Source: Fluviicola sp.
GTDB taxonomy: Bacteria; Bacteroidota; Bacteroidia; Flavobacteriales_D; Crocinitomicaceae
Assembly: GCA_002734085.1 (NCBI GenBank)
Contig: NVXV01000001.1
Span: 439,860-503,859 of the forward strand
Direction of reading: 5' to 3'
DNA length: 64,000 nucleotides
Shown piece after piece: positions 2,386 to 46,321 of the stretch (within the stretch, counting starts at the first letter, position 1; each line of letters starts with the position of its first letter). A program made the position numbers and the translations under genes. Under the pieces are notes generated by a model. The model worked only from the letters and a program-made list of their open reading frames with translations. It was not told where the DNA came from and did not search any database.

Positions 2386-3911
2386 ATCGCTTTTAGTTCG
2401 TTAACGCGCTCGATGTTTATCTTCATTCGCTCTAAAGTAGTTTCTTTACCCAAAAGAGCAGAAATTTCAAACATACTTGGACCCATTCCTTTTCCAGTTA
2501 TTAATAAACGAAAAGCAGGGAGTACAGCACCAATTCCTTTTTCCTTTTCTTCCAGGAAGCTTTTAAACGATTGTTCAATGGCAGAGGCGTCAAAAGGGTC
2601 GATTTTCTCAAGACGATTGATCCACTCCGTCATAATTTCTGCGGTATCATCTTTCCATTTTTTACGCAATGTTTTGTCATCAAACGAGGTAGGTGCATTG
2701 AAAAAATAGTCTCCTTCATCGATAATGTCTCGAACAAACGTAGCACGCTCTTTCATTAATTCACATACTGAAGCAAGATATTCATCTGGTTGAGAAAGCT
2801 CGGGGTTTTCCTCCTTTAGCATTTGTGCTAATTTCTCATTAGACGCAGCGCGCAAATATTGTTGTTGGTACCATTTAGTTTTGTCAGCGTCGAATTTAGC
2901 ACCCGCCTTACTCACTCTTTCTAGAGAAAAAGCTTCAACCATTTCTTCTAAAGAAAAGATCTCTTGTTCTGTTCCAGGATTCCAACCTAAAAAGGCAAGC
3001 ATATTTAGAAAGGCTCCAGGGAAATATCCATTTTCTCTATATCCTGAATATTTTTCGCCTTCTGCAGTTGTCCAATCAGTTGGGAAAACAGGGAAACCTA
3101 ATCGATCACCATCTCGTTTCGATAATTTACCATTTCCATCTGGTTTAAGAAGTAAAGGACAGTGAGCAAATTTAGGAGCGTTCCAGCCAAAAGCTTCATA
3201 TAGTAAAACGTGTAGAGGGGCAGATGGTAACCATTCTTCACCACGGATTACGTGCGTTATTTCCATTGTATGGTCATCCACAATATTTGCCAGGTGATAG
3301 GTTGGCATTCCGTCACTTTTATATAAAACTTTATCGTCCAGATTATTTGTATTCACAACTACCCATCCACGGATAATATCCTCAAAACGAACGTCTTCGT
3401 TGCGTGGCATTTTAAAACGAATGACGTAAGGATCTCCATTTTGAAGCCTTCTTTCTACCTCGTCTTCTGGAAGTGTTAAAGAGTTTTTCATTGAAGAACG
3501 CGTCACACCGTTGTATTGCCAGTTAGGCATTTTCATTTTCTTAGCTTGATCACGCATTTCGGTCAACTCTTCAGCTGTATCAAAAGCATAATAAGCCTTT
3601 CCTTTTTGAACTAACTCTTCAGCATAAGGCTTGTACATTTCTTTTCTCGAAGACTGCTTATAAGGACCGTATTCCCCTCCAACATTCGGACCTTCGTCTG
3701 GTGTAATTCCACACCACTTCAATGCATCCAAAATATATTCTTCTGCACCCTCAACAAATCGCGTTTGATCTGTGTCCTCAATGCGCAGAATAAAAGTTCC
3801 ATTGTGCTTTTTAGCAAACAAATAATTATAAAGTGCAGTTCTTACTCCACCCATGTGAAGCGGACCAGTTGGCGATGGTGCAAATCTTACGCGTACCTTG
3901 TTTTCAGACAT
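2382..3911 (-). CDS. gltX: Glutamate--tRNA ligase
   Basis: A 509-residue class I aminoacyl-tRNA synthetase charging tRNA-Glu. The start is the ATG at 3909-3911, giving MSENKVRVRFAPSPTGPLHM. The frame stays open another 110 codons upstream, but that stretch is low-complexity and holds the likely promoter, so it is not coding. HIGH is present as HMGG at residues 19-22 and KMSKS as KLSKR near 261. The region between carries the usual 'RIEDTD' and 'TYHLANIVDDH' segments. The C-terminal anticodon-binding domain follows. A TATCTTTG -7 box lies just upstream (3928-3935). The stop overlaps the folB start. Confidence 0.97.
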   Translation of the reverse strand: MSENKVRVRFAPSPTGPLHMGGVRTALYNYLFAKKHNGTFILRIEDTDQTRFVEGAEEYILDALKWCGITPDEGPNVGGEYGPYKQSSRKEMYKPYAEELVQKGKAYYAFDTAEELTEMRDQAKKMKMPNWQYNGVTRSSMKNSLTLPEDEVERRLQNGDPYVIRFKMPRNEDVRFEDIIRGWVVVNTNNLDDKVLYKSDGMPTYHLANIVDDHTMEITHVIRGEEWLPSAPLHVLLYEAFGWNAPKFAHCPLLLKPDGNGKLSKRDGDRLGFPVFPTDWTTAEGEKYSGYRENGYFPGAFLNMLAFLGWNPGTEQEIFSLEEMVEAFSLERVSKAGAKFDADKTKWYQQQYLRAASNEKLAQMLKEENPELSQPDEYLASVCELMKERATFVRDIIDEGDYFFNAPTSFDDKTLRKKWKDDTAEIMTEWINRLEKIDPFDASAIEQSFKSFLEEKEKGIGAVLPAFRLLITGKGMGPSMFEISALLGKETTLERMKINIERVNELKAI

Positions 3912-34926: not shown

Positions 34927-35059
34927 GCAAATTTTATGGGTATGCTAAAATGAGTCTGATATAAGTATTTTGAAAAACGGTTATTGAGTAAGTATTTTGT
35001 TTGAATACGGATAATCAGATTAATAATACGGAAAACATCAAGGGTAACCTGTTATTTTC

Positions 35060-35067
35060 TATCTTTG
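35060..35067 (+). promoter_or_regulatory. -7 box for the first TPR-SpoIIE gene
   Basis: TATCTTTG matches TAnnTTTG, 17 bases before the ATG at 35085. It places the transcription start below the alternative TTG start at 35001. Confidence 0.5.
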
Positions 35068-35084
35068 ATATTAAATACTACTAT

Positions 35085-37166
35085 ATGGTTCGTGGAATAA
35101 TCAGTATTATACTTCTTTTCTCTCTTCAACTCTGTTTTGCTCAAAACGAAGACCCTGATTCTAAAACAGCCAGGTTGAATAAAAAGTTTATGAAAGCGCT
35201 TTATGAAGAAGGAAATGAAGATCTCGCAAATAGAATAAGCGATAGTTTAAAATTAATTTATAAAAACACAGGTCACCTTTATAGCCTATACCGCTATTAT
35301 AATTCAAAAGGGAATCTCGCTTATTATAGAGGTGAATATCCAGTTGCGTTAAGGCATTTTAACGACGCATTATTAATGGGCAAAAAACATAAAGACACAT
35401 CAATTATAGTGGGAGCACAAATGAATGTGGGTGCAATGTTTTATCTGTTAAATAATTATGACGAGGCACTTAAGCACTATTTAGAAGACGCCAAAATTAT
35501 GGAAATCTATGATACTAGTGGTTTGTCAGGACTTTATGGTAATATCGGGATGCTCTATAATGATATTGATCAATTAGAGAAAGCTGAGTTTTATTTGAAT
35601 CGGTCTATGAATTTAGTGAATTCCGAAAAAGAAATTGAAGAAATAATTAAACCTCTCAATGTTCTGGGAATTGTGCAGCGTAAAAAAGGGGAGTATGGTG
35701 AAAGTGAAAAGTCTCTAATAAGGGCGATTGAAATTGCTGAAGACAATCCTCGCTTTTATCGTGATATAGCAGACATACATTCGAGTTTAGCAAATTTATT
35801 TAAAGAGACGAACAATTATAAAAAGCAAGAACATCACATTCAAAAGAGTATTGAATATTATGAAAAAATCAACAACCCCACTAATATAGCTTATGGCCGC
35901 CAGCTTTTGGCGAACTATTATTTAGACGTAGGGGAGAGTGTTAGGGCTGAAAGAGAAATAATAACGGCCTTACAGTTTTTCAACTCGACTGACTTTCCAG
36001 TAAGCTCGAAACGAGAATTTTATGCCACCTATGCTCAGATTTTGTATGCTCAAAACAAATATAAAGAAGCGTATGACCAATTAAATCTGGGTTTTGAACT
36101 TTATGACACTTTGTTTTCTCTTCAAAAAATTGAACAAGCATCTAAACTTGAAACAAAGTATTTCTATCAACAAAAAATTAAATTAGACTCAATTAAAAGA
36201 GCTGAAGAACAAAAAAAACAGGCACTGAGAATTAAAAAAGAAAAGGCGGAAAATGAAGCCGCTTTAGCTCAACAAAAAATATATTCAACAGTGGGTATAG
36301 GTGGGACCTTATCTTTGCTCATTATTGCATTTGTGCTTTTTAAGGCATACCGAAACAAGAACAAATCGAACATTTTAATTTCAGAACAAAAAAATCAAAT
36401 TGAGGCGAAACAGACTGAAATTTTAGACTCAATTCAATATGCCAAACGGATTCAAACCGCTATTCTTCCACCACAAAGTTTAGTGAAATCTTATTTGACT
36501 AATTCTTTTGTTTTGTATAAACCAAAAGATGTGGTAGCAGGAGACTTCTATTGGATGGAACACGTGGGAGACAACATTCTATTTGCCGCAGCTGATTGCA
36601 CTGGTCATGGCGTTCCAGGAGCAATGGTGAGTGTTGTTTGTAATAACGGATTAAATAGAAGCGTACGTGAATATGGGTTAACAGATCCAGATAAAATCCT
36701 TAATAAAACAAGAGAAATTGTTGTTCAAGAATTTGAAAAATCAGAAGAAGATGTAAAAGACGGTATGGATATTTCACTTTGTTCACTTTCGCTTTCAACG
36801 CATTCATTAACTTGGGCAGGAGCAAACAACCCGTTATGGATTATCCGAAAAGACTTAGATCAAGTGGAAGAGATCAAAGCGGATAAACAACCTATTGGAA
36901 AGTATCAAGACCCAAAACCTTATACGAATCATGAGGTGAAATTAGAAAAGGGAGATTCGATATTCATCTTCACAGATGGTTATCCAGATCAATTTGGAGG
37001 GGAGCACAATAAAAAATTTAAAACAACGAATTTCAAAAAACTACTTCTAAGTGTAAAAGGTGAAAAAATGGAAGACCAAAAGCGTATAATTGATAAGAAA
37101 TTCGAAGAGTGGAAAGGGAGTGAAGAGCAAGTAGATGACGTCTGTGTTATAGGGGTTCTAATTTAA
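35085..37166 (+). CDS. TPR-transmembrane-SpoIIE (PP2C) phosphatase, paralogue 1
   Basis: A 693-residue envelope protein. The start is the ATG at 35085, which gives a signal peptide (MVRGIISIILLFSLQLCFAQ). Residues about 25-360 are TPR repeats outside the cytoplasm. A membrane helix lies at about 399-420. A short coiled linker ('EAKQTEILDSIQYAKRIQTA') leads into the SpoIIE/RsbU PP2C domain (about 465-693). Metal-binding aspartates are visible in 'VVAGDFYWME', 'AAADCTGHGVPGAMVS', 'FTDGYPDQFGG' and 'VDDVCVIGV', so it should be an active serine phosphatase controlled by extracytoplasmic sensing. The partner protein is unknown. Confidence 0.93.
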   Translation: MVRGIISIILLFSLQLCFAQNEDPDSKTARLNKKFMKALYEEGNEDLANRISDSLKLIYKNTGHLYSLYRYYNSKGNLAYYRGEYPVALRHFNDALLMGKKHKDTSIIVGAQMNVGAMFYLLNNYDEALKHYLEDAKIMEIYDTSGLSGLYGNIGMLYNDIDQLEKAEFYLNRSMNLVNSEKEIEEIIKPLNVLGIVQRKKGEYGESEKSLIRAIEIAEDNPRFYRDIADIHSSLANLFKETNNYKKQEHHIQKSIEYYEKINNPTNIAYGRQLLANYYLDVGESVRAEREIITALQFFNSTDFPVSSKREFYATYAQILYAQNKYKEAYDQLNLGFELYDTLFSLQKIEQASKLETKYFYQQKIKLDSIKRAEEQKKQALRIKKEKAENEAALAQQKIYSTVGIGGTLSLLIIAFVLFKAYRNKNKSNILISEQKNQIEAKQTEILDSIQYAKRIQTAILPPQSLVKSYLTNSFVLYKPKDVVAGDFYWMEHVGDNILFAAADCTGHGVPGAMVSVVCNNGLNRSVREYGLTDPDKILNKTREIVVQEFEKSEEDVKDGMDISLCSLSLSTHSLTWAGANNPLWIIRKDLDQVEEIKADKQPIGKYQDPKPYTNHEVKLEKGDSIFIFTDGYPDQFGGEHNKKFKTTNFKKLLLSVKGEKMEDQKRIIDKKFEEWKGSEEQVDDVCVIGVLI

Positions 37167-37279: not shown

Positions 37280-39517
37280 TTGAAACCGATAATAAAGTTA
37301 CTATTCCTTCTACTATTCACTAACAACTTAGTGTATTCAAATATTGATAGTTTGCGCAATGTTTTCAACTCTAGTAATGTTGACACTGTAAAGCTAATCT
37401 CAGCCAAAGCACTTTCAGCTAATTATGAGCAAAAAAATCCAGACTCTTCAGTTTATTTTGGAAAACAGGCGTTAGAAATTGCCAACAAATTGGATCGACC
37501 AGCGGACAAAGTTTCTGCTTTATTAAAAATTGGAACGGGTCATTATTTTGCGAGAGATTATAATCAAACTATTGAGGAATGCAATAAAGCCCTAGTACTT
37601 TCCAAAAAGATAAAGGATACGATTTATCAAGGCACCATTCTTTACTATTTAAGTCGAGCGTATAGTCGAATTGCGCGATACGACTTAACAATACAAATTC
37701 AGCTCGACGCTATTCGTTTTTACGAAGAAAGAAATCATGCTGCTGCAATAGGAGTTATGTATAATAATATGTCTATTGCTTACAAATATTTAGGAGACTT
37801 TAGGGAGGCGATAGAAGCACTGAAAATAGCTTCTAAAAATTATAAGAAAGCGAAAAGTAAGGAAAACTACTTTTCACCATATACAAATATAGCGGCATGT
37901 TATTTTGAGATGGAGGAGTACGACTCATGCCTGATTTATGTGGATTCGGCAAAAATAATGGTGAAGAAATATAATAAACCCAATGCTGAGACTATGCTGA
38001 ATCATATGCAGATATGGGAAGGCGAAATTGCTTATGAACGAGGGTCTTATGAGAAAGCGTTAGGACATTATAAAATAAGTCATGAGGCTAATATGGAGTC
38101 CTACGAAATTGACGATCAAATTTATTCACAACTTGGTATTGGTCGTTCTCTTTTAAAACTGGGCCGACCTAAAGAAGCAAAGCCATATTTGGTTGAAGTT
38201 TTAGAAAAAGCAAAAGAATCAAATGCGTTGAAAAGAGTTATGATGGGACACGAAGCTCTTGCGGAATTGTATAATGAATTGGGCGATTTTAAAAAATCTA
38301 CGTATCATCTAAAACATCAAATAGAGTTAAGCGATAGTATTTTCAACCAAGAGAAGACAATGGCCATTATGAGTGCCAGAACGGCTTTTGACGTCGAAAA
38401 TAAAGAAAAGGAGATTCGCATGTTAAGCATGAAAAATGAGTTGGGCGAAAAAAATGCACGTCTTCAAGAAGCGGAGTTAGAGCAAACCAAATCGCGTCAA
38501 ATTCTTTTATACTCAATTCTTGCTTTTACACTTGTTTTCATCATAGGGCTTTTTGTTCTTATTAAAAAGCGGAACAAAACAAATCGTCTTTTAAAAAGAC
38601 AAAAGAACGAAATCTCGGAACAAAAAGAAGTTTTGCAGATTAAAAACAAGGAAATACTAGATTCAATCCAGTATGCAAAACGTATTCAAACCGCAATTTT
38701 ACCACCTGGGAAGTTGGTGAGGTCTTATCTTGAAGACTCTTTTATTTTATATAAGCCAAAAGACGTTGTTGCAGGCGATTTTTATTGGATGGAATCATTT
38801 AACAATGCTCCTTTAAACCAGAAGAAGACAGAAAAAAGTGCTGAAGATACTATACTCTTTGCCGCTGCGGACTGTACAGGTCATGGTGTTCCTGGCGCTA
38901 TGGTTTCAGTGATATGTAATAACGGACTTAATCGCGCTGTACGAGAATATGGAATAACAGATCCGGGTAAAATTTTAGATAAAACACGTGAAATTGTTAT
39001 TCAAGAATTTGAAAAAAGTGATGAAGAAATGAAAGACGGAATGGACATTTCTTTAGTTTCTCTTCGATCTGATAAAAATCGTAGCTTCATTGAATGGGCA
39101 GGAGCAAATAACCCACTTTGGATTATTCGAAAAAGTGAGATTAAACCAGAAGATCTTCAAATGAATGGTGGTAGTAGCGAGAAAATAATTGTCCAAAATC
39201 ATGAGGGTTATTCCCTAGTTGAAATAAAGCCAGACAAACAACCAATAGGACAATATGACAATCCAAAGCCTTATACAACGCATCGTTTAGAGCTGAAAAA
39301 GGAAGATACAATCTATGTTTTCACAGATGGTTATCCAGATCAATTTGGAGGTGAACACAATAAAAAGCTTAAAACAACCAACTTCAAAAAACTTCTATTG
39401 AGCATTAATGACAAAACAATGGATGAGCAAAAATCCATCATCGATAAGTCTTTCGAAGACTGGAAAGGTGGATTTGAGCAGGTAGATGACGTCTGCGTTA
39501 TAGGAGTGCGACTGTAA
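37280..39517 (+). CDS. TPR-transmembrane-SpoIIE (PP2C) phosphatase, paralogue 2
   Basis: A 745-residue paralogue of the preceding gene. It uses a TTG start; this gives a good signal peptide (MKPIIKLLFLLLFTNNLVYS) directly after a promoter. TPR repeats at about 25-370, membrane helix at about 407-430, coiled linker and SpoIIE PP2C domain at about 490-745. All four metal-binding aspartate motifs are intact. Relative to paralogue 1 it has two insertions inside the phosphatase domain (after 'DFYWMES' and after 'IIRKSEI'). The last 21 coding bases belong to a repeat that continues into the intergenic region and occurs again downstream. Confidence 0.93.
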   Translation: MKPIIKLLFLLLFTNNLVYSNIDSLRNVFNSSNVDTVKLISAKALSANYEQKNPDSSVYFGKQALEIANKLDRPADKVSALLKIGTGHYFARDYNQTIEECNKALVLSKKIKDTIYQGTILYYLSRAYSRIARYDLTIQIQLDAIRFYEERNHAAAIGVMYNNMSIAYKYLGDFREAIEALKIASKNYKKAKSKENYFSPYTNIAACYFEMEEYDSCLIYVDSAKIMVKKYNKPNAETMLNHMQIWEGEIAYERGSYEKALGHYKISHEANMESYEIDDQIYSQLGIGRSLLKLGRPKEAKPYLVEVLEKAKESNALKRVMMGHEALAELYNELGDFKKSTYHLKHQIELSDSIFNQEKTMAIMSARTAFDVENKEKEIRMLSMKNELGEKNARLQEAELEQTKSRQILLYSILAFTLVFIIGLFVLIKKRNKTNRLLKRQKNEISEQKEVLQIKNKEILDSIQYAKRIQTAILPPGKLVRSYLEDSFILYKPKDVVAGDFYWMESFNNAPLNQKKTEKSAEDTILFAAADCTGHGVPGAMVSVICNNGLNRAVREYGITDPGKILDKTREIVIQEFEKSDEEMKDGMDISLVSLRSDKNRSFIEWAGANNPLWIIRKSEIKPEDLQMNGGSSEKIIVQNHEGYSLVEIKPDKQPIGQYDNPKPYTTHRLELKKEDTIYVFTDGYPDQFGGEHNKKLKTTNFKKLLLSINDKTMDEQKSIIDKSFEDWKGGFEQVDDVCVIGVRL

Positions 39518-39613
39518 GGAGCACGAACTAGAACGCATGACGGAATTATCCCAGTCTAGTCGCGGTTAATGAGCGCTAGCGAATTTACCAAGACTCCATC
39601 GGGATAGATGACC
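39497..39613 (+). repeat. Phosphatase-linked intergenic repeat, copy 1
   Basis: A 117-base unit that starts in the last 21 bases of paralogue 2 and continues 96 bases past its stop. It is about 96% identical (5 mismatches, no gaps) to copy 2. Internal structure: CTAG-T-CGC pairs with GCG-CTAG around a GGTTAATGA loop, enclosed by AGTCT/AGACT and TATCCC/GGGATA. No coding potential seen. Type of element unknown. Confidence 0.85.
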
Positions 39614-39682
39614 CGTAGAAACGAAAGCACCACTTCGGACTGAAAACAGCTTTATTACAAGATCAACCATCATTTTTATATG

Positions 39683-39799
39683 GTTATAGGAGTGCGACTG
39701 TAAGGGGCACGAACTAGAACGCATGACGGAATTATCCCGGTCTAGTCGCGGTTAATGAGCGCTAGCGAATTTACTAAGTCTCCATCGGAATAGATGACC
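39683..39799 (+). repeat. Phosphatase-linked intergenic repeat, copy 2
   Basis: Second 117-base copy, in the gap before arsR and 69 bases after copy 1. It begins with the same 21 bases that end the phosphatase coding sequence (GTTATAGGAGTGCGACTGTA), although no gene precedes it here. The rest of this 396-base gap (39518-39913) holds only the spacer, an A/T-rich stretch and the arsR operator. Confidence 0.85.
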
Positions 39800-39890
39800 T
39801 AATGAAGTCTACGAGTAAATTCAATCAATTTAAACTTCACTTTATATATTTATCTAAAGAAAAACTTTTTTTACTTAAAAGTTTATCGTA

Positions 39891-39902
39891 ATATTGCAAT
39901 AT
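39891..39902 (+). promoter_or_regulatory. Probable ArsR operator
   Basis: ATATTGCAATAT is a perfect 12-bp palindrome ending 11 bases before the arsR start codon, the usual place for autorepression by ArsR-family proteins. Derepression by arsenite would induce the whole ars operon. Confidence 0.55.
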
Positions 39903-39913
39903 ACAAATTTGAT

Positions 39914-40249
39914 ATGGGAATTACACGAACAGATTTATTTACAAAAGAACAAAATGAAATAGCACTTTTTGCAAAGTGTCTTGCTCACCCAGCGCGCGTG
40001 GCAATTTTAGAGCATTTACTTCAAAAAAATGAATGTGTAAACTCCACGCTTGTATTGGAATTGGGTTTAGCGCAAGCTACAATTAGTCAGCATTTAAAAG
40101 AATTAAAAAACGCTAAAATTATTCAAGGTACGATTGAAGGAAATAGCATGAATTACTGTATTAATCCAGTAATCTGGAAAAAGATAAAAGAAAAGTTTAA
40201 TAACATATTTGATCAACACATTTGCTGCGGAGGAAATGATTGTTGTTAA
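39914..40249 (+). CDS. arsR: ArsR/SmtB family arsenite-responsive repressor
   Basis: A 111-residue winged-helix repressor. The HTH segment is 'LAQATISQHLKELKNAKI' and the wing 'GTIEGNSMNYCINP'. Metalloid-binding cysteines are probably in the C-terminal tail 'HICCGGNDCC' (four Cys), since the usual alpha-3 CxC motif is absent. C-terminal cysteine sensors are known among ArsR subfamilies. First gene of the operon arsR-DUF6428-acr3, with a palindromic operator just upstream. Confidence 0.92.
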   Translation: MGITRTDLFTKEQNEIALFAKCLAHPARVAILEHLLQKNECVNSTLVLELGLAQATISQHLKELKNAKIIQGTIEGNSMNYCINPVIWKKIKEKFNNIFDQHICCGGNDCC

Positions 40250-40263
40250 AATTAAAAACAGAA

Positions 40264-40740
40264 ATGATGAAACTATCAGAAGTTAAAAAAGCATTGGAGT
40301 CGGTAAGCGAAATTAAGTTTGAATTGCCAAACGGAACATTTGTTCCAATTCATTTTCATGTGACAGAAGTAGGCGCAATTACACGCCACTTTATTGATTG
40401 TGGAGGAACAGAAAGAATTGAAAAAGTAGTGAACTTCCAATTATGGGAGGCAGGAGATTTTGACCACAGATTAGCCCCAGAAAAGTTGAAAAATATCATT
40501 TCACTCTCTGAAGAAAAACTAGGATTGGGTAATATGAAAGTTGAGGTGGAGTATCAAATGGATACAATTGGTAAGTTCAATTTAGATTTCAATGGTTCCC
40601 ACTTTGTTTTAGTTCCACAACAAACAGCTTGTTTAGCGCAAGATAAGTGCGGAATACCAGAGGAGAAACAAAAAGTAGCGCTAACTTCAATTGGAAAAGA
40701 GGATAGTAACGCATGTACACCAGGAGGAGGTTGCTGCTAA
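40264..40740 (+). CDS. DUF6428 family protein in the arsenic operon
   Basis: A 158-residue soluble protein matching, from memory, the DUF6428 family that occurs beside ars genes in Bacteroidota. The start is the ATG at 40264; another ATG follows directly, and an upstream TTG at 40240 overlaps arsR but is less likely. It contains 'IHFHVTEVGAITRHFIDCGG', then 'CLAQDKCG', and ends in 'NACTPGGGCC'. Six cysteines are thus available, four of them in the C-terminal third. The CC-tail echoes that of the neighbouring ArsR, which suggests metalloid binding (inference); an ArsD-like chaperone role is possible. Function not established. Confidence 0.8.
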   Translation: MMKLSEVKKALESVSEIKFELPNGTFVPIHFHVTEVGAITRHFIDCGGTERIEKVVNFQLWEAGDFDHRLAPEKLKNIISLSEEKLGLGNMKVEVEYQMDTIGKFNLDFNGSHFVLVPQQTACLAQDKCGIPEEKQKVALTSIGKEDSNACTPGGGCC

Positions 40741-40750
40741 TAAATAGTGT

Positions 40751-41791
40751 ATGGGTACATTTGAGAAATACCTTACGCTATGGGTGGTATTGTGTATAAT
40801 TGTAGGAATAGGGCTAGGTAATCTATTAGGTGATTCAATTAACCTTCTAAGTGATTGGAATATCTCAACAGTAAATATCCCTGTTGCCATTTTGGTCTGG
40901 TTAATGATTTTTCCAATCATGGTACAAATTGACTTTAGTTCAATCAAGAATTTTTCCAAAAACTTAAAAGGCTTGGGATTAACCATTTTTATAAATTGGT
41001 TTATTAAACCCTTTACAATGGCCTTTTTTGCATGGATTTTTTTCTATAACTTCTATGCATCATTTATTTCTCCAGAAAACGCTGAACAATATCTTGCAGG
41101 GGCAATCCTGCTAGGAGCAGCGCCATGTACGGCTATGGTTTTTGTTTGGTCCTATTTAACAAAAGGGGATGCTAATTATACACTAGTTCAAGTTTCGGTG
41201 AATGACTTAATTTTACTCGTTGCTTTTATTCCTATTGTTGGCGGATTATTTAGCCTCTTTGGAATTGAAGTAGTGAATGCTGGTCAAGAACTGGGTATTC
41301 CATATAAGGCTTTAGCAACTTCTGTAATTGTTTTTGTAGTTATTCCTTTGATAGCAGGATACATCACCAATAGACTAATTATTAAAAGTAAAGGGATTAA
41401 TTGGTTTGAAAAAAAGTTTCTTAGAAACCTTAAGCCAATATCTATAATTGCTCTTTTAACCACACTGATTTTATTGTTTGCTTTTCAAGGAGCGAAAATT
41501 ATCGAACAACCATTTGATATATTATTAATTACAATACCACTGACAATTCAAACCTATTTTATATTTTTTGTTACCTGGTTTATTGGGAGATACATAAAGT
41601 TAAAACACAATATTTGTGCTCCCGCAGCAATGATTGGCGCCAGCAATTTTTTTGAATTAGCTGTTGCCGTTGCAATTATGTTGTTTGGCCTTAATTCAGG
41701 AGCAGCTTTAGCAACAGTTGTAGGCGTGTTAATTGAAGTACCAGTGATGCTATCATTAGTTGCATTGGCGAATAAGTGGAAATACTCATAA
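40751..41791 (+). CDS. acr3: ACR3 family arsenite efflux transporter
   Basis: A 346-residue, ten-helix transporter of the ACR3 (BART superfamily) type that exports As(III) using the proton gradient. The family motif with the essential cysteine is present: 'GAILLGAAPCTAMVFVWSYL'. So is the second conserved region 'CAPAAMIGASNFFELAVAVA'. Starts 10 bases after the DUF6428 gene, so one transcript. No arsenate reductase (arsC) or arsA is seen beside it. Confidence 0.95.
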   Translation: MGTFEKYLTLWVVLCIIVGIGLGNLLGDSINLLSDWNISTVNIPVAILVWLMIFPIMVQIDFSSIKNFSKNLKGLGLTIFINWFIKPFTMAFFAWIFFYNFYASFISPENAEQYLAGAILLGAAPCTAMVFVWSYLTKGDANYTLVQVSVNDLILLVAFIPIVGGLFSLFGIEVVNAGQELGIPYKALATSVIVFVVIPLIAGYITNRLIIKSKGINWFEKKFLRNLKPISIIALLTTLILLFAFQGAKIIEQPFDILLITIPLTIQTYFIFFVTWFIGRYIKLKHNICAPAAMIGASNFFELAVAVAIMLFGLNSGAALATVVGVLIEVPVMLSLVALANKWKYS

Positions 41792-41846
41792 TATGGTGAT
41801 TAAAAATTCATTTTTGTTACTTTAGCGTATTGTAAAAGCGACCGAT

Positions 41847-44201
41847 TTGAGTTTAGAAAAAGCAGTTCTCTCTTTTTTGATTGTATTTTCAATCTATCCA
41901 TGTCTAGGTCAAGATCAATGGCTTAAAGGTCAAAGCGATTCTTTATCCAAAATTTGGAATGATCAAAGCTATTCCAAAAAGGAAAGAGCTCAGTCACTTT
42001 GTTTAGTTTTAGAAGGAGTAGAAAATCCAGATGATTTTAAAGGGTTAAGGCATTTTTCAAATATTCTTATTGATTTCTCAAAAGAACATAACCTTAAAAA
42101 TGAGTTGGCTTGTGGGTATAAGTCAAAGGCTTCAGTATTTGAAATTGATAAAAATCCAGATTCAGCTATTGTCTATTTAAACAAGGCTTTAGAAATAAAG
42201 AAGAATTCAGATGATGTGCACGAAGCCGCCCGATTATTTTTAAAACTTGGAGAGAATTATAAAGATCTATTTCTGTTTGATGAGGCTATTGAAAAGTATA
42301 ATCTGGCTATTGAAATCCTTAAGAATACGAAGGACCAATTAAGCCTTGCAATGGCGTATAATAATATTGCAAACATTCATGTTCATAGAGGTAAGATTAA
42401 AGAGGCGATTAAATATTTGACTAAAACACTTAAGATTTACGAAAACCAAGAGTATACTTTTGGGGTGCAAAAAGCACTGTCAAATATTGGAAACATTTAC
42501 TATGATCAGCAAGATTATTCTGAAGCGTTTAATTATTACAACAAATCGTACCAGATTAATAAAGAGGAAAACTTTGAAAAAGAAAGCATTGGTTCGCTTA
42601 TAGGACTGGGAAACACCTATCATATGTTGGAGGAAATAGACTCCGCAGAAACAGCCTATTTAAATGCTATTGACCTGCTTCAAACCTATCCTAACAAATA
42701 TGACGAAGCCCTATTATTCAATAATTTAGGGAATTTATATTACGAAACAGGCGCAAATGAATTAAAAGAACAGAATGGGAAAAAGAATTTTGAAGTTCTT
42801 GATAAATCTGTGAATTATCATCAAAAAGCATATTCAATTCAAAAGGAAATTAATGACATTGTTGGGATGAGTTATTCTCTTTCTAGTATTGCGGAAGTTT
42901 ATTATTTGGAAGGAAATCAAGAAAAAGCGATTGAATTTGGCGAAAAGGCGCTTAATTTAGCAAAAGAGGGGGAGTCAATTACTGATATAAAATATGTATC
43001 ATTTTTCTTGTATGAAGTCTATAAGATTTACAACAAACCAACCAAGGCACTTGAGATGTATGAGTTGTATGTTGAAACTCGCGACAAGCTGATTAATCAA
43101 AGCAACCAAGAAGAAATCGTTCGCCAAAAACTCAAGTATGAATATGAGAAAAAGTCTTTCCAGGATAGTTTAAAAGCAGCACAAGAAAAAGAATTCATTG
43201 AAAAAGAATTACAGTTAAGTGATTTAAAATTGGAAAAAGAAAAATCAATTCGTTATTCTTTGTTGGTTGGATTAGGGTTAGTGTTATTATTTGGTATACT
43301 GATGTATAATAGATTTAAAGTTACACGAAGAAAAAATAAAATTATCGAAGCTCAAAAGCGTGTGGTTGATGTTAAAAACAAAGAAATTATTGACTCAATC
43401 AATTACGCAAAACGCCTTCAGGATGCAATACTTCCCCCCAACAAACTAATTACATCTTATTTATTAGATAGCTTTATTTTATATCGTCCAAAAGATATTG
43501 TTGCAGGAGATTTCTATTTTATGGATGTAGTTGAGGAAGACAATAAAAAATTAGTATACTATGCAACTGCAGATTGTACTGGACACGGTGTTCCAGGAGC
43601 AATTGTTAGTATTGTAGGAGCCAACGGACTTAAAAGATGTATTCAAGAATTGAATTTAAGAAAGCCCGGTGAAATTTTAGAAGTTTTATCAAAAATTGTT
43701 GCTGAAAACTTTTCCCAAAGTGAAAAAAAGATTCGTGATGGAATGGACATAGCGCTTTGCTGCCTTGAGTTCGTTAATAACAAACCCATAAACCTGCATT
43801 ATGCTGGAGCAAACATTCCTCTTTTATTAGTAAATCCAAATAGATCCAACTGGCCATCGGACTTTATTCAGCTCAAAGATGCAAAATCGGGAGAAATTAA
43901 ACCCGACAAACAAGCAATAGGATACTCTGAAGAATCTACTCCGTTTGTAACGCACACAATTGAAACAGAAAAAGGTGATACGCTCTATACTTTTTCAGAC
44001 GGATATGCAGATCAATTTGGAGGCCCTCAAAAAGAAATAGGCGGGAAAAAGTTTAAAACCGTAAAACTTAAAAACCTCTTTGTCGACATCTATAACCAAA
44101 GTATGGATCAACAAAAAGAAACCTTAACAACCACATTCGACGAGTGGAAAGGAGACCTGGAGCAAGTAGATGACGTCTGCGTTATAGGAGTGCGACTGTA
44201 G
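41847..44201 (+). CDS. TPR-transmembrane-SpoIIE (PP2C) phosphatase, paralogue 3
   Basis: A 784-residue third paralogue, separated from the other two by the ars operon. TTG start at 41847 with a signal peptide ('AVLSFLIVFSIYPCLGQ'). TPR repeats at about 60-420 (clear units such as 'AMAYNNIANIHVHRGKIKEA'), membrane helix at about 468-488, SpoIIE PP2C domain at about 545-784. Metal motifs intact: 'IVAGDFYFMD', 'TADCTGHGVPGAIVS', 'FSDGYADQFGG', 'VDDVCVIGV'. Its last 20 coding bases before the stop triplet are identical to those of paralogue 2, and a third copy of the intergenic repeat follows. Confidence 0.93.
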   Translation: MSLEKAVLSFLIVFSIYPCLGQDQWLKGQSDSLSKIWNDQSYSKKERAQSLCLVLEGVENPDDFKGLRHFSNILIDFSKEHNLKNELACGYKSKASVFEIDKNPDSAIVYLNKALEIKKNSDDVHEAARLFLKLGENYKDLFLFDEAIEKYNLAIEILKNTKDQLSLAMAYNNIANIHVHRGKIKEAIKYLTKTLKIYENQEYTFGVQKALSNIGNIYYDQQDYSEAFNYYNKSYQINKEENFEKESIGSLIGLGNTYHMLEEIDSAETAYLNAIDLLQTYPNKYDEALLFNNLGNLYYETGANELKEQNGKKNFEVLDKSVNYHQKAYSIQKEINDIVGMSYSLSSIAEVYYLEGNQEKAIEFGEKALNLAKEGESITDIKYVSFFLYEVYKIYNKPTKALEMYELYVETRDKLINQSNQEEIVRQKLKYEYEKKSFQDSLKAAQEKEFIEKELQLSDLKLEKEKSIRYSLLVGLGLVLLFGILMYNRFKVTRRKNKIIEAQKRVVDVKNKEIIDSINYAKRLQDAILPPNKLITSYLLDSFILYRPKDIVAGDFYFMDVVEEDNKKLVYYATADCTGHGVPGAIVSIVGANGLKRCIQELNLRKPGEILEVLSKIVAENFSQSEKKIRDGMDIALCCLEFVNNKPINLHYAGANIPLLLVNPNRSNWPSDFIQLKDAKSGEIKPDKQAIGYSEESTPFVTHTIETEKGDTLYTFSDGYADQFGGPQKEIGGKKFKTVKLKNLFVDIYNQSMDQQKETLTTTFDEWKGDLEQVDDVCVIGVRL

Positions 44202-44202
44202 C

Positions 44203-44258
44203 CCCGACGATTTAAATAACATAGAAATTTTGATAAACTTACTGGATTAAATGTCGGG
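44203..44258. repeat. Inverted-repeat-bounded insertion after paralogue 3
   Basis: CCCGAC (44203-44208) and GTCGGG (44253-44258) bound a 56-base A/T-rich segment; the pairing extends inward over ATTTAA/TTAAAT with one bulged base. Compared with copies 1 and 2 it sits between the gene end and the repeat, so it looks like a small palindromic insertion or a terminator-like element. Confidence 0.5.
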
Positions 44259-44263
44259 ACAGG

Positions 44264-44357
44264 AAGGACGAACAATAACGCATGACGGAATTACCCCGAT
44301 CTAGTCGTAGTTAATGAGTGCTAGCGAATTTACCAAGACTCCATCGGGATAGATGAC
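44264..44357 (+). repeat. Phosphatase-linked intergenic repeat, copy 3
   Basis: The third copy keeps the core from ACGCATGACGG to GATAGATGAC (6 mismatches to copy 1 over about 79 bases). In the central hairpin the CGC/GCG arm is changed to CGT/GTG, which can still pair as RNA through G-U pairs. The remainder of the gap to aspS (44358-44543) is A/T-rich with nothing recognised. Confidence 0.8.
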
Positions 44358-44543
44358 TTTACCAAATCGAAAACACCCTATTATTTCAAAGTAGATTTAA
44401 TCCTATAAGAAAAGAGGACAATTTTTTTGGTCTTGAGCCAGAAATAAGCATAGGAATAACTTATTTAATCGGAGATTGCTAATACTTCTCATATTTTTAC
44501 ATCAATTAAAAGTTCTTACACCTAAAAAATAGATTCTTCTTTC

Positions 44544-44551
44544 TATTTTTG
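44544..44551 (+). promoter_or_regulatory. -7 box for aspS
   Basis: TATTTTTG fits TAnnTTTG, 18 bases before the aspS ATG. No clear -33 TTG. Confidence 0.4.
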
Positions 44552-44569
44552 TCCAAAATTGAATAAATC

Positions 44570-46321
44570 ATGTACAGAACGCATAATTGTGGTGAACTAA
44601 GAATAAATCAAGTTGGTGAAAATGTAACACTTGCAGGGTGGGTACAAAGAACCAGAGAAATGGGAGGAATGACTTTCGTTGATTTACGTGATCGTTATGG
44701 AATTACACAATTGGCTTTTAGTACGGATGACAATGAACAGTTAAACCAATCTGCGCGTAAATTAGGACGTGAATTTGTAATTCAAATAAAAGGAGAGGTC
44801 ATTGAGCGTTCAAGTAAAAACAAGAATATTCTAACAGGAGAAGTTGAAATTAAAGTTGTTGAGTTAACGATTTTAAATGCAGCTAAAACTCCTCCATTTA
44901 CAATTGAAGAAGAGACAGATGGTGGCGATGAACTTCGAATGAAGTATCGTTATTTAGACATTCGAAGAACGACTATTCAAGAAAAATTAAGACTAAGAAA
45001 TAAGGTAGCGCTTGAGACACGTAAGTACTTAGATGGTGAAAACTTCATGGATGTTGAGACACCTTATTTGATAAAATCAACTCCTGAAGGGGCGCGTGAT
45101 TTCGTTGTTCCAAGCAGAATGAATCAAGGTGAGTTTTATGCGCTTCCACAATCCCCTCAAACGTTCAAACAGTTATTGATGGTTTCCGGTATTGATCGTT
45201 ACTATCAAATTGTAAAGTGTTTCCGTGATGAAGACTTAAGAGCGGACCGTCAACCAGAGTTTACACAAATTGACTGTGAGATGTCTTTTGTGGAGCAGGA
45301 AGATGTTCTAAATACATTCGAAGGATTAGTGAAACACTTATTTAAAGCTTGTAGAAACGTTGATTTTGAAGGAGACTTTCCACGTATGACTTTTGCAGAA
45401 GCAATGGAAAAGTACGGATCAGACAAACCCGACATTCGTTTTGGAATGGAGTTCAAAAACTTGAATGAAGTTGCAAAAAACAAAGGATTCAAAATATTTG
45501 ATGAAGCAGAATTAGTGGTAGGTATTGTTGCTGAGCAATGTGCTGTGTACTCAAGAAAACAATTAGATGGACTAACAAAATGGGTACAACGACCACAAAT
45601 TGGTGCTAAGGGACTGGTTTACGTAAAATACAATGAAGATGGATCGTTTAAAAGCTCAGTAGACAAGTTCTATTCTCAAGAAGACCTCAAAACTTGGGCT
45701 GAAATGACTGGTGCAAAACCAGGAGACTTAATCCTTGTGTTAAGTGGCGAAGCTGAAAAAGCACGCAAGCAAATGAATGAGCTTCGACTGCACATGGGAG
45801 ACGAGTTAGGGTTGAGAAATCCAAACGAATTTAAACCATTGTGGGTACTTGATTTCCCACTTTTGGAATGGGATGAAGAAACAGAGCGATACCATGCAAT
45901 GCATCACCCGTTCACCTCACCAAAACAAGAAGATTTAGAATTACTTGATTCTGATCCAGGAAAGGTGAGAGCAAATGCTTATGATTTAGCAATGAATGGC
46001 GTAGAGCTTGGTGGTGGATCTATTCGTATTCACGATAGAGAGTTACAGGCATTGATGTTTAAGCACCTCGGATTTTCAGATGAAGAAGCTCAAAAACAGT
46101 TTGGCTTCTTAATGAACGCTTTCGAATTTGGTGCTCCACCGCATGGAGGGATAGCATTTGGTTTAGATCGCTTAGTAGCAACAATGGGCGGATCTGATTC
46201 TATTCGAGATTATATCGCGTTTCCAAAGAACAACGCTGGTAGAGATATTATGATTGATGCTCCTGCGACAATTGACGAAGAACAATTAAATGAATTAGCG
46301 CTTCGTTTGAAAGAAGATTAA
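44570..46321 (+). CDS. aspS: Aspartate--tRNA ligase
   Basis: A 583-residue class II synthetase of the long bacterial type. The N-terminal OB-fold anticodon domain ('[20 protein letters not shown]') is followed by class II motif 1, motif 2 ('[20 protein letters not shown]') and motif 3 ('[16 protein letters not shown]'). The bacterial GAD insertion lies between motifs 2 and 3 ('[16 protein letters not shown]' region). Full length. The thioesterase gene follows with a single base between the stop and the next ATG. Confidence 0.97.

Follow-up and report, generated by a model that had tools for sequence, protein, structure and literature searches.

In most cases, short palindromic repeats lie between coding regions or are dispersed among genes of unrelated function and origin. 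Some integrative elements rebuild the 3' end of the tRNA gene or protein gene that they enter; these are kilobases long and carry an integrase. The attC sites of integrons are imperfect hairpins with a variable loop, conserved by structure over sequence. Repetitive extragenic palindromic (REP) elements are described as having a GTAG or CGTC foot and as being spread over many genes (PMC3733652, PMC6006769), while Rickettsia palindromic elements (RPEs) are described as lying inside many unrelated genes (PMC10969869). Here we analysed a stretch of 64,000 nt from Fluviicola sp. (contig NVXV01000001.1, positions 439,860 to 503,859; the whole stretch is called the window), which contains three copies of a 117-nt repeat at or shortly behind the ends of TPR-SpoIIE phosphatase genes. 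Comparison with related genomes suggests that this repeat probably belongs to a family of short mobile palindromes, which are non-autonomous and specialised on the 3' tail of these genes.

As far as sequences can tell, this reading is supported by the layout of the unit, the confinement of whole units to phosphatase tails in the genomes searched, the near-identical units in different paralogues, the displaced coding tails and the covariation between the arms of the main hairpin.

Copies of the repeat in the window

Sequence comparison across the window placed the three copies at 39497-39613, 39683-39799 and 44242-44358. An earlier reading made from the letters alone (the sequence-only reading) had described a unit of approximately 117 bases occurring three times, with 69 bases between the first two copies and these two nearly identical, and we located the copies accordingly: copy 2 is 96% identical to copy 1 at a spacing of 186 nt, and copy 3 is 77% identical. 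The same reading had called the repeat intergenic and had seen no reading frame or known element that explains it. The left boundary of the repeat, however, falls within the open reading frame (ORF) of a phosphatase gene, paralogue 2, in its last approximately nine codons (DDVCVIGVRL*). Because copy 1 begins inside this coding end, the last seven codons recur outside any gene at the start of copy 2 (GTTATAGGAGTGCGACTGTAA, 39683-39703), identical over 21 nt. Among 42 ORFs of the window tested, paralogue 2 was the only one whose final 21 nt recur in the 500 nt that follow it, and this repetition is above chance level.

Paralogue 2 (37280-39517, plus strand, like the other phosphatase genes and repeat parts of the window; Pfam SpoIIE 9.3e-16, TPR_12 2.7e-22) thus has a 3' end which is the first part of copy 1. 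Its coding tail (39485-39517) contains the left arm of a hairpin (hairpin 1; left arm approximately 39490-39509, stop codon 39515-39517 in the loop), and the right arm, complementary to the coding tail, was placed at 39521-39542 by pair counts and folding. A second hairpin (hairpin 2, ATCCC ... GGGAT, 39548-39605, fold z -2.97) and the motif GATGAC (39607-39612) follow. We read GATGAC as the probable start of a displaced older tail, since a full tail stands at the equivalent place in units of the genomes G014 and G042 and of contig C13 of the same Fluviicola genome. The stretch of approximately 70 nt between copies 1 and 2 (39613-39682) occupies the place where GTCTGC of the second tail would be expected. 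In copy 2, the non-genic gene tail is followed by the right arm of hairpin 1 and the hairpin 2 region (39707-39798, with GATGAC at 39793-39798). Copy 3 is borne by paralogue 3 (41847-44201; ORF and Pfam), whose coding tail, again DDVCVIGVRL*, serves as the left arm of hairpin 1 (44169-44201, by sequence comparison). Within the window, this copy alone has extra sequence with an inverted repeat of its own (CCCCGAC...GTCGGG, 44202-44263) in the hairpin 1 loop. Its right arm (44266-44286) was placed by register with copy 1, hairpin 2 (44295-44348) by folding, and GATGAC stands at 44352-44357. Both copies 2 and 3 retain GATGAC alone of the second tail.

At the DNA level, the core of the repeat was found in the Fluviicola genome in these three copies and no others. 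A diverged copy on contig C13 was detected with the tail pattern and the hairpin model (E 6.1e-4). The search for the core and its neighbouring genes, which the sequence-only reading had proposed, thus yielded the window copies, the C13 copy and, in other genomes, units at phosphatase tails. Recent passive tandem duplication restricted to the window locus would agree with the adjacency and the 96% identity of copies 1 and 2, and confinement to this locus without covariation had been named as its hallmark. Since units occur also in other genomes and genera and in unlinked paralogues, and since the arms covary (see below), we regard such a duplication as very improbable.

Folding of the units

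The sequence-only reading had proposed that the core can fold by pairing of CTAG-T-CGC with GCG-CTAG and had taken a change in copy 3 that still permits G-U pairing as a hint of selection on RNA structure. Such a hairpin can be written, but it is absent from the minimum-energy fold of all three window copies; the units of G014 have other sequence at its place. Without the coding end, the spacer folds are unremarkable (z -1.31, 0.34 and -0.04 for the three copies; 0.68 for copy 2 without full left arm). With the coding end included, z values of -5.59 (39485-39545) and -4.36 (39482-39612) were obtained, and in the strongest fold the coding end is paired with the first part of the spacer, resulting in the long imperfect hairpin 1. 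Since the fold is strong once the coding end is included, the unit straddles the stop codon. Selection on the CTAG hairpin is unsupported, and it is the larger hairpin, including the stop codon and coding sequence, that received support instead. The covariance model R1 matches 39485-39545 at 83.5 bits, this sequence being itself among those used to build it.

A strong hairpin over the stop codon, which covaries and has the same orientation in all cases read, could be a selected 3'-end structure of phosphatase mRNAs, acting as stabiliser, terminator or translation-coupled regulator and spread by its usefulness. This is close to the 3'-untranslated-region regulatory RNA considered in the sequence-only reading. 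However, no intrinsic terminator (G+C-rich stem with T run) was detected at the window units, the sole such site in 39400-44700 being at 40333-40346, and a run of at least four T after the CGGG motif was present at two of 13 places, which does not support a terminator. Rfam gave no match on the units, with two matches below the gathering threshold elsewhere in 39400-44600. Further, most paralogues examined have no displaced tail (61 of the 98 ends described below, and 39 of 40 in the genus of the window), and the model for the window's unit type was unmatched in 230 of 240 genomes of the family, other unit types lying outside this model. We consider a selected RNA structure, in favour of which the covariation speaks, an improbable explanation for the spread of the units.

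Layout and types of units in related genomes

As read in the related genomes, the first part of a unit is a replacement gene tail that includes the stop codon; the complement of this tail (forming hairpin 1 with it) and often a second hairpin follow, and the unit contains no gene. The units are approximately 60-180 nt long, are located in the last approximately ten codons of the TPR-SpoIIE gene and have one orientation in every case read. Several types share this layout and differ in sequence. The window units belong to type 2; type I is present in ten genes of G004; and types A and B of G042, whose spacing gives lengths of 61 and 77 nt, also occur nested, with A in front of B. Tandem or nested arrays were found in G023, G042, G014, G055 and G790.

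In genomes of the family, the core lies directly 3' of a phosphatase tail or, sometimes in G014, further along an array, and a second tail usually follows; contig C15 of G026 is an exception without second tail. Often the second tail differs from the first and can still be translated, as with DDVLIIGIKIV* in G014; this suggested an imported first tail and a displaced native one. As regards the target-site duplication of fixed size that characterises miniature inverted-repeat transposable elements, the units have short shared ends whose size varies with the type: GTAAT starts the displaced type I tails in 9 of 9 cases, and GATGA is found in type 2.

The G014 arrays (L100, L142, L143) also contain hairpins with the core ATAGGAGYCC...GGACGAACTA whose outer arm is non-coding; another repeat present in these arrays is GGATTTTTAAATCCAGATTACAAAT. 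At L306 (G014, contig C22), a unit stands behind a phosphatase gene which is apparently broken upstream. Contig ends lie in units at L085, L086 and L160 of G042 and at L101, L102 and L143 of G014, so that arrays may exceed the assembled length.

Covariation between coding and non-coding arms

Hairpin 1 of type 2 was analysed in an alignment of 14 sequences, from which window copy 3 and the C13 copy were excluded before pairs were counted. It has 17 pairs, with 87.2% of the cells paired and six pairs changed on both sides. The paired share, the number of double-changed pairs and the covariation score were each reached in none of 500 shuffles, and slid controls gave at most 47.3%. The pairs that fail most are those of columns 16-47 (formed in 5 of 14 sequences), 11-52 (failing in five) and 24-38 (failing in four). 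A second script applied to 13 distinct type 2 units, a set chosen by a regular expression fixing several positions, gave 0 of 20,000 shuffles. In type I, nine pairs are formed in all ten sequences, and two are changed on both sides; this count was reached in 39 of 500 shuffles and the covariation score in none of 500. Several of the changes in the coding arm are synonymous third positions (ATA/ATT, TGC/TGT, GTN). The folds of single units vary, L113 (z -5.03) and L170 (z -3.14) being among the stronger ones. Thus, the covariance model and the test for covarying pairs that had been suggested for the core revealed covariation, in the arms of hairpin 1.

When all tails were compared, the own tail had a rank for complementarity of 0.78 in genes with a displaced tail vs 0.57 in genes without, a modest effect. 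At 22 unit loci the rank was 0.94, with the own arm best or tied in 11.

The covariation may result from selection or from arm-to-arm template switching. RNA hairpins are reported to be created and maintained by template switching (PMC8794818). During replication, such an accident could produce a tail, its opposite-strand complement and the tail again in one event, and subsequent arm-to-arm correction would keep the complementarity, so that covariation would need no selection. The layout fits a double switch, and L113 has a near-perfect inverse of its own tail. Template switching alone, however, leaves unexplained that the same unit and spacer are present in ten paralogues of G004 and that units of different types are nested, and as a full account of the units it appears improbable to us.

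Displaced tails

A tail profile was built from 101 gene ends, 98 of which had enough downstream sequence. A further tail within 400 nt downstream was detected at 37 of these 98 ends (reverse complement 2, reversed sequence 0). The sampling of these ends was selective: the presence of type 2 cores guided the choice of the six genomes, some ends were included for having two tails close together, and G026 contributed 4 of its 24 pattern hits. In the single-contig genome G004, all pattern-matching ends were taken; its 38 pattern hits include two second tails, leaving 36 gene ends, and 13 of these have a displaced tail.

The type I units of G004 allow the unit tails and the displaced tails to be compared. 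The unit tails of nine genes (without L132, where additional sequence precedes the old tail) are 0.963 alike, the displaced tails 0.735 and the tails of 22 unit-free genes 0.633; the initial GTAAT, common to all nine, contributes to the figure for the displaced tails. All nine displaced tails still read VI(G/S)(V/I)(R/K)(V/I), one of them with the stop a codon later. On the upstream side of the junction, the type I genes are about as similar to each other as to unit-free genes (0.56 vs 0.55 just before GATGAY), with scattered codons up to 0.19 higher, while the values reach 0.81-1.00 vs 0.50-0.79 from a point 6-12 nt past the initial G of GATGAY. By this comparison, the similarity among type I genes begins within the tail.

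These data bear on gene conversion, by which a tail-spacer-tail block, duplicated once, would have been copied among the paralogues of a genome through homologous recombination acting on the short tail that they share and conserve, without any element mobile in itself. Many paralogues with a common tail are indeed available (9 to 38 pattern hits per genome in the six genomes), whole units are confined to this gene family, and the unit carries no gene. However, additional similarity of type I genes on the upstream side of the junction is slight or absent, and the displaced tails diverge from the eighth or ninth base, so that only short shared stretches flank the unit for gene conversion. In addition, the same design recurs in several genera. 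We therefore hold gene conversion to be unlikely, although it accounts for the confinement to one family.

Confinement of the units to phosphatase tails

When 399 genomes from the order were searched for the core with at most two mismatches, six contained it, each of them belonging to the family of the window, and control patterns gave no match. The tail pattern behind the above range of hits per genome gave one control hit overall. A scan of contigs from named genomes returned 17 stretches, 12 of them in metagenome-assembled genomes named Flavobacteriia, Flavobacteriales or Crocinitomicaceae. The five stretches from other phyla have no phosphatase tail beside the match and were taken as chance.

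The covariance model of type 2 hairpin 1, which leaves types I, A and B uncovered, gave 40 matches in 10 of 240 genomes of the family (E ≤0.01). All 40 are at or just downstream of TPR-SpoIIE tails, three of them being placed by their coordinates in arrays already examined. Ten of the 40 lie in L100, L141-L143, L149, L151, L330 and L458, and some weak matches are tails with little or no unit (e.g. L151, L311). At the level of the class (Bacteroidia), six of 395 genomes had matches at E ≤0.001, and the five loci outside the family are phosphatase tails too. Clear units among these are the two of G769 and that of G790, those of G536 and G493 being marginal. The G790 locus (L335) is an 83-nt tandem array of units at a phosphatase tail with a CCCGA/TCGGG hairpin; its sequence is far from that of the window and it has the same two hairpins. 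Since this array comes from another family within the class, the design extends beyond the family of the window.

For the other types, spacer searches gave a similar picture. In G004, phosphatase tails account for 10 of 11 type I matches, and the remaining match (E 0.04) covers an inner 25-nt piece with no tail in the surrounding 2 kb. Two weaker type I matches in G023 and G026, outside the tail list, are also at phosphatase tails. All 16 type A/B matches in G042 (E ≤1.4e-4) are at tails, four covering the coding tail only. Spacer matches with E >0.1 in G026 and G042 look mostly like chance. The hairpin 1 pattern, searched in 15 genomes, was located at phosphatase tails or in arrays just 3' of them, including three non-coding versions in G014. 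Taken together, whole units were met only at TPR-SpoIIE tails in the genomes searched, and their distribution is patchy.

Candidates for an independent life of the unit were rejected. Hairpin 1 occurs off tails at two places (G072 C6, G026 C1), which have other sequence around them and no tail signature within approximately 3 kb, and which were taken as chance. G026 C15 was considered as a gene-carrying or autonomous version, since the left half of a type 2 unit is followed there by another gene; no second tail shows up in 19.4 kb, so that this contig does not indicate cargo. Phages and plasmids gave no match to the window stretch. Viral contigs gave one pattern match (L337), without the surrounding features, and with a loose pattern none of 120 loci among the matches listed had the phosphatase tail pattern.

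With respect to the remaining window sequence, paralogue 1 of the phosphatase genes (35001-37166, tail 37134-37166; ORF and Pfam) has no unit visible on its 3' side. Between paralogues 2 and 3 (39914-41791), genes for an ArsR-type regulator, a DUF6428 protein and an SBF-family transporter are located, which look like an arsenic resistance cluster. A weak match of the hairpin model at 3389-3429 (E 0.015), in a region coding on the other strand, is probably a chance inverted repeat.

Proposed explanation

Based on these comparisons, we propose that units move between paralogues and genomes and that the gene is kept whole by the tail which the unit brings along. A unit would enter the last approximately ten codons of a phosphatase gene, its own tail would become the gene ending, and the native tail would be left downstream. 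With the gene ending on the unit's tail, the protein would be nearly unchanged, and the success of the unit may rest on this sparing of the protein. The native tail could then serve as an entry site for a further unit. The unit may move as a folded single strand that is recombined by an enzyme acting in trans, and a candidate is a Y1/HUH transposase: the Y1_Tnp domain (PF01797) is encoded in all six unit genomes, a count made for unit-bearing genomes only. A folded single strand and such an enzyme fit the hairpins, the orientation and the absence of genes.

Several observations weigh against a mobile, tail-specific unit, including the make-up of the 98 tested ends mentioned above. The entry points differ slightly by type, being before RTN-GATGAY, before GTNTG or before GTNAT, a variation not expected from a single enzyme with strict site specificity. 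No enzyme was tied to the units, Y1_Tnp having been checked in the six unit genomes alone, and neither movement nor an orthologous empty/filled pair was found in the genomes compared. In the genus of the window, one weak second tail (L273, score 10.1) was found among 40 ends from four genomes (12 ends from the Fluviicola genome, 28 from three relatives). At L117, L098, L032 and L061, the second tails are exact or near-exact copies of the first, which tandem duplication also yields. At L152/L321 the stop codon is outside the loop and the frame continues into the right arm. The number of further pair types in type 2 was reached in 102 of 500 shuffles, and the arms fold poorly at L309 (z -1.29) and in the displaced copy of L158 (z -0.82). 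Finally, part of the interior of the long type I spacer (query 34-67 or 36-60) occurs off tails at three places in G023 and one in G004. Being found away from tails, this inner hairpin probably represents an independent dispersed repeat that became trapped in the unit.

The off-tail inner hairpin (around CCGCGTG...GCGGTGGCGC) was located at L230, L460 and L461 of G023 and at L462 of G004. By eye, diverged remnants of units may exist at L245 and L252 of the Fluviicola genome and a decayed type 2 arm at L280 (G086).

If the mobile, tail-specialised unit is real, it would represent target specialisation in the smallest mobile DNA, an unusual lifestyle in which units repair what they break and coding strand is complementary to non-coding sequence. 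In a genome like G004, 13 of the 36 marked paralogues are occupied, which allows direct study of repeat movement. The units also matter to annotators and assemblers, since intergenic DNA contains second gene tails and since, in G014 and G042, several contigs start or end in units.

Comparison with known systems

Our searches of open-access literature returned no description of such units. The sequence-only reading had offered a regulatory RNA, a new REP family or a recombination hot spot for shuffling phosphatase genes, and the REP-like and recombination readings came nearest, although the defining features of GTAG and CGTC REPs are missing. GTAG REPs, which are mobilised by REP-associated tyrosine transposases (RAYT), are described with the tetranucleotide GTAG or GTGG at the hairpin foot (PMC6006769). 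In the units, the bases before GATGAY vary (GTA, CTA, ATT, GTC, GTT...), and GTAG arises only where the codon is GTA. CGTC REP/RPE elements are described with an unpaired CGTC tag, a stem of 8-9 bp, a loop of 4-5 nt and a CCA-like tail (PMC3733652); in the units CGTC, if present, is within the paired arm, and 17 pairs with internal loops are formed. The general dispersal of REP/RPE elements over unrelated genes was not seen either, the 40 family hits and the five class loci outside the family all being TPR-SpoIIE tails. The Y1 HUH transposase of IS200/IS605-type or REP transposition, in turn, is represented by the PF01797 domains mentioned above.

REP elements (GTAG/CGTC, RAYT/TnpAREP) and the units are alike in being short, gene-less palindromic repeats, often 3' of genes and thought to be mobile. 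Unlike REP elements, whole units are restricted to the tail of one gene family and include a coding tail and stop codon. RPEs and in-gene miniature inverted-repeat transposable elements share with the units that palindromic repeats of approximately 150 nt are found in protein genes which stay readable, but the units replace the C-terminal codons of one family. As in integrative elements, the 3' end of the gene is supplied by the element and the old end is found on its other side, while the units have approximately 60-180 nt and no gene instead of kilobases and an integrase. With attC sites and the ends of IS200-IS605 elements, the units have in common imperfect hairpins which are kept by structure and have a variable loop; they differ in that no integrase or transposase is tied to the units, no search aimed at an integrase having been made.

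It is tempting to go one step further and to regard the unit, tentatively and at somewhat less than even chances, as a new kind of mobile element, a gene-tail cassette of approximately 60-180 nt which, folded as a single strand, would home into the terminal codons of a single multi-copy gene family, would be recognised by its complementarity to the coding tail and would survive because its replacement ending leaves the protein nearly unchanged. We place the units among the short palindromic mobile repeats, and there is a fair chance that they deserve a name of their own.

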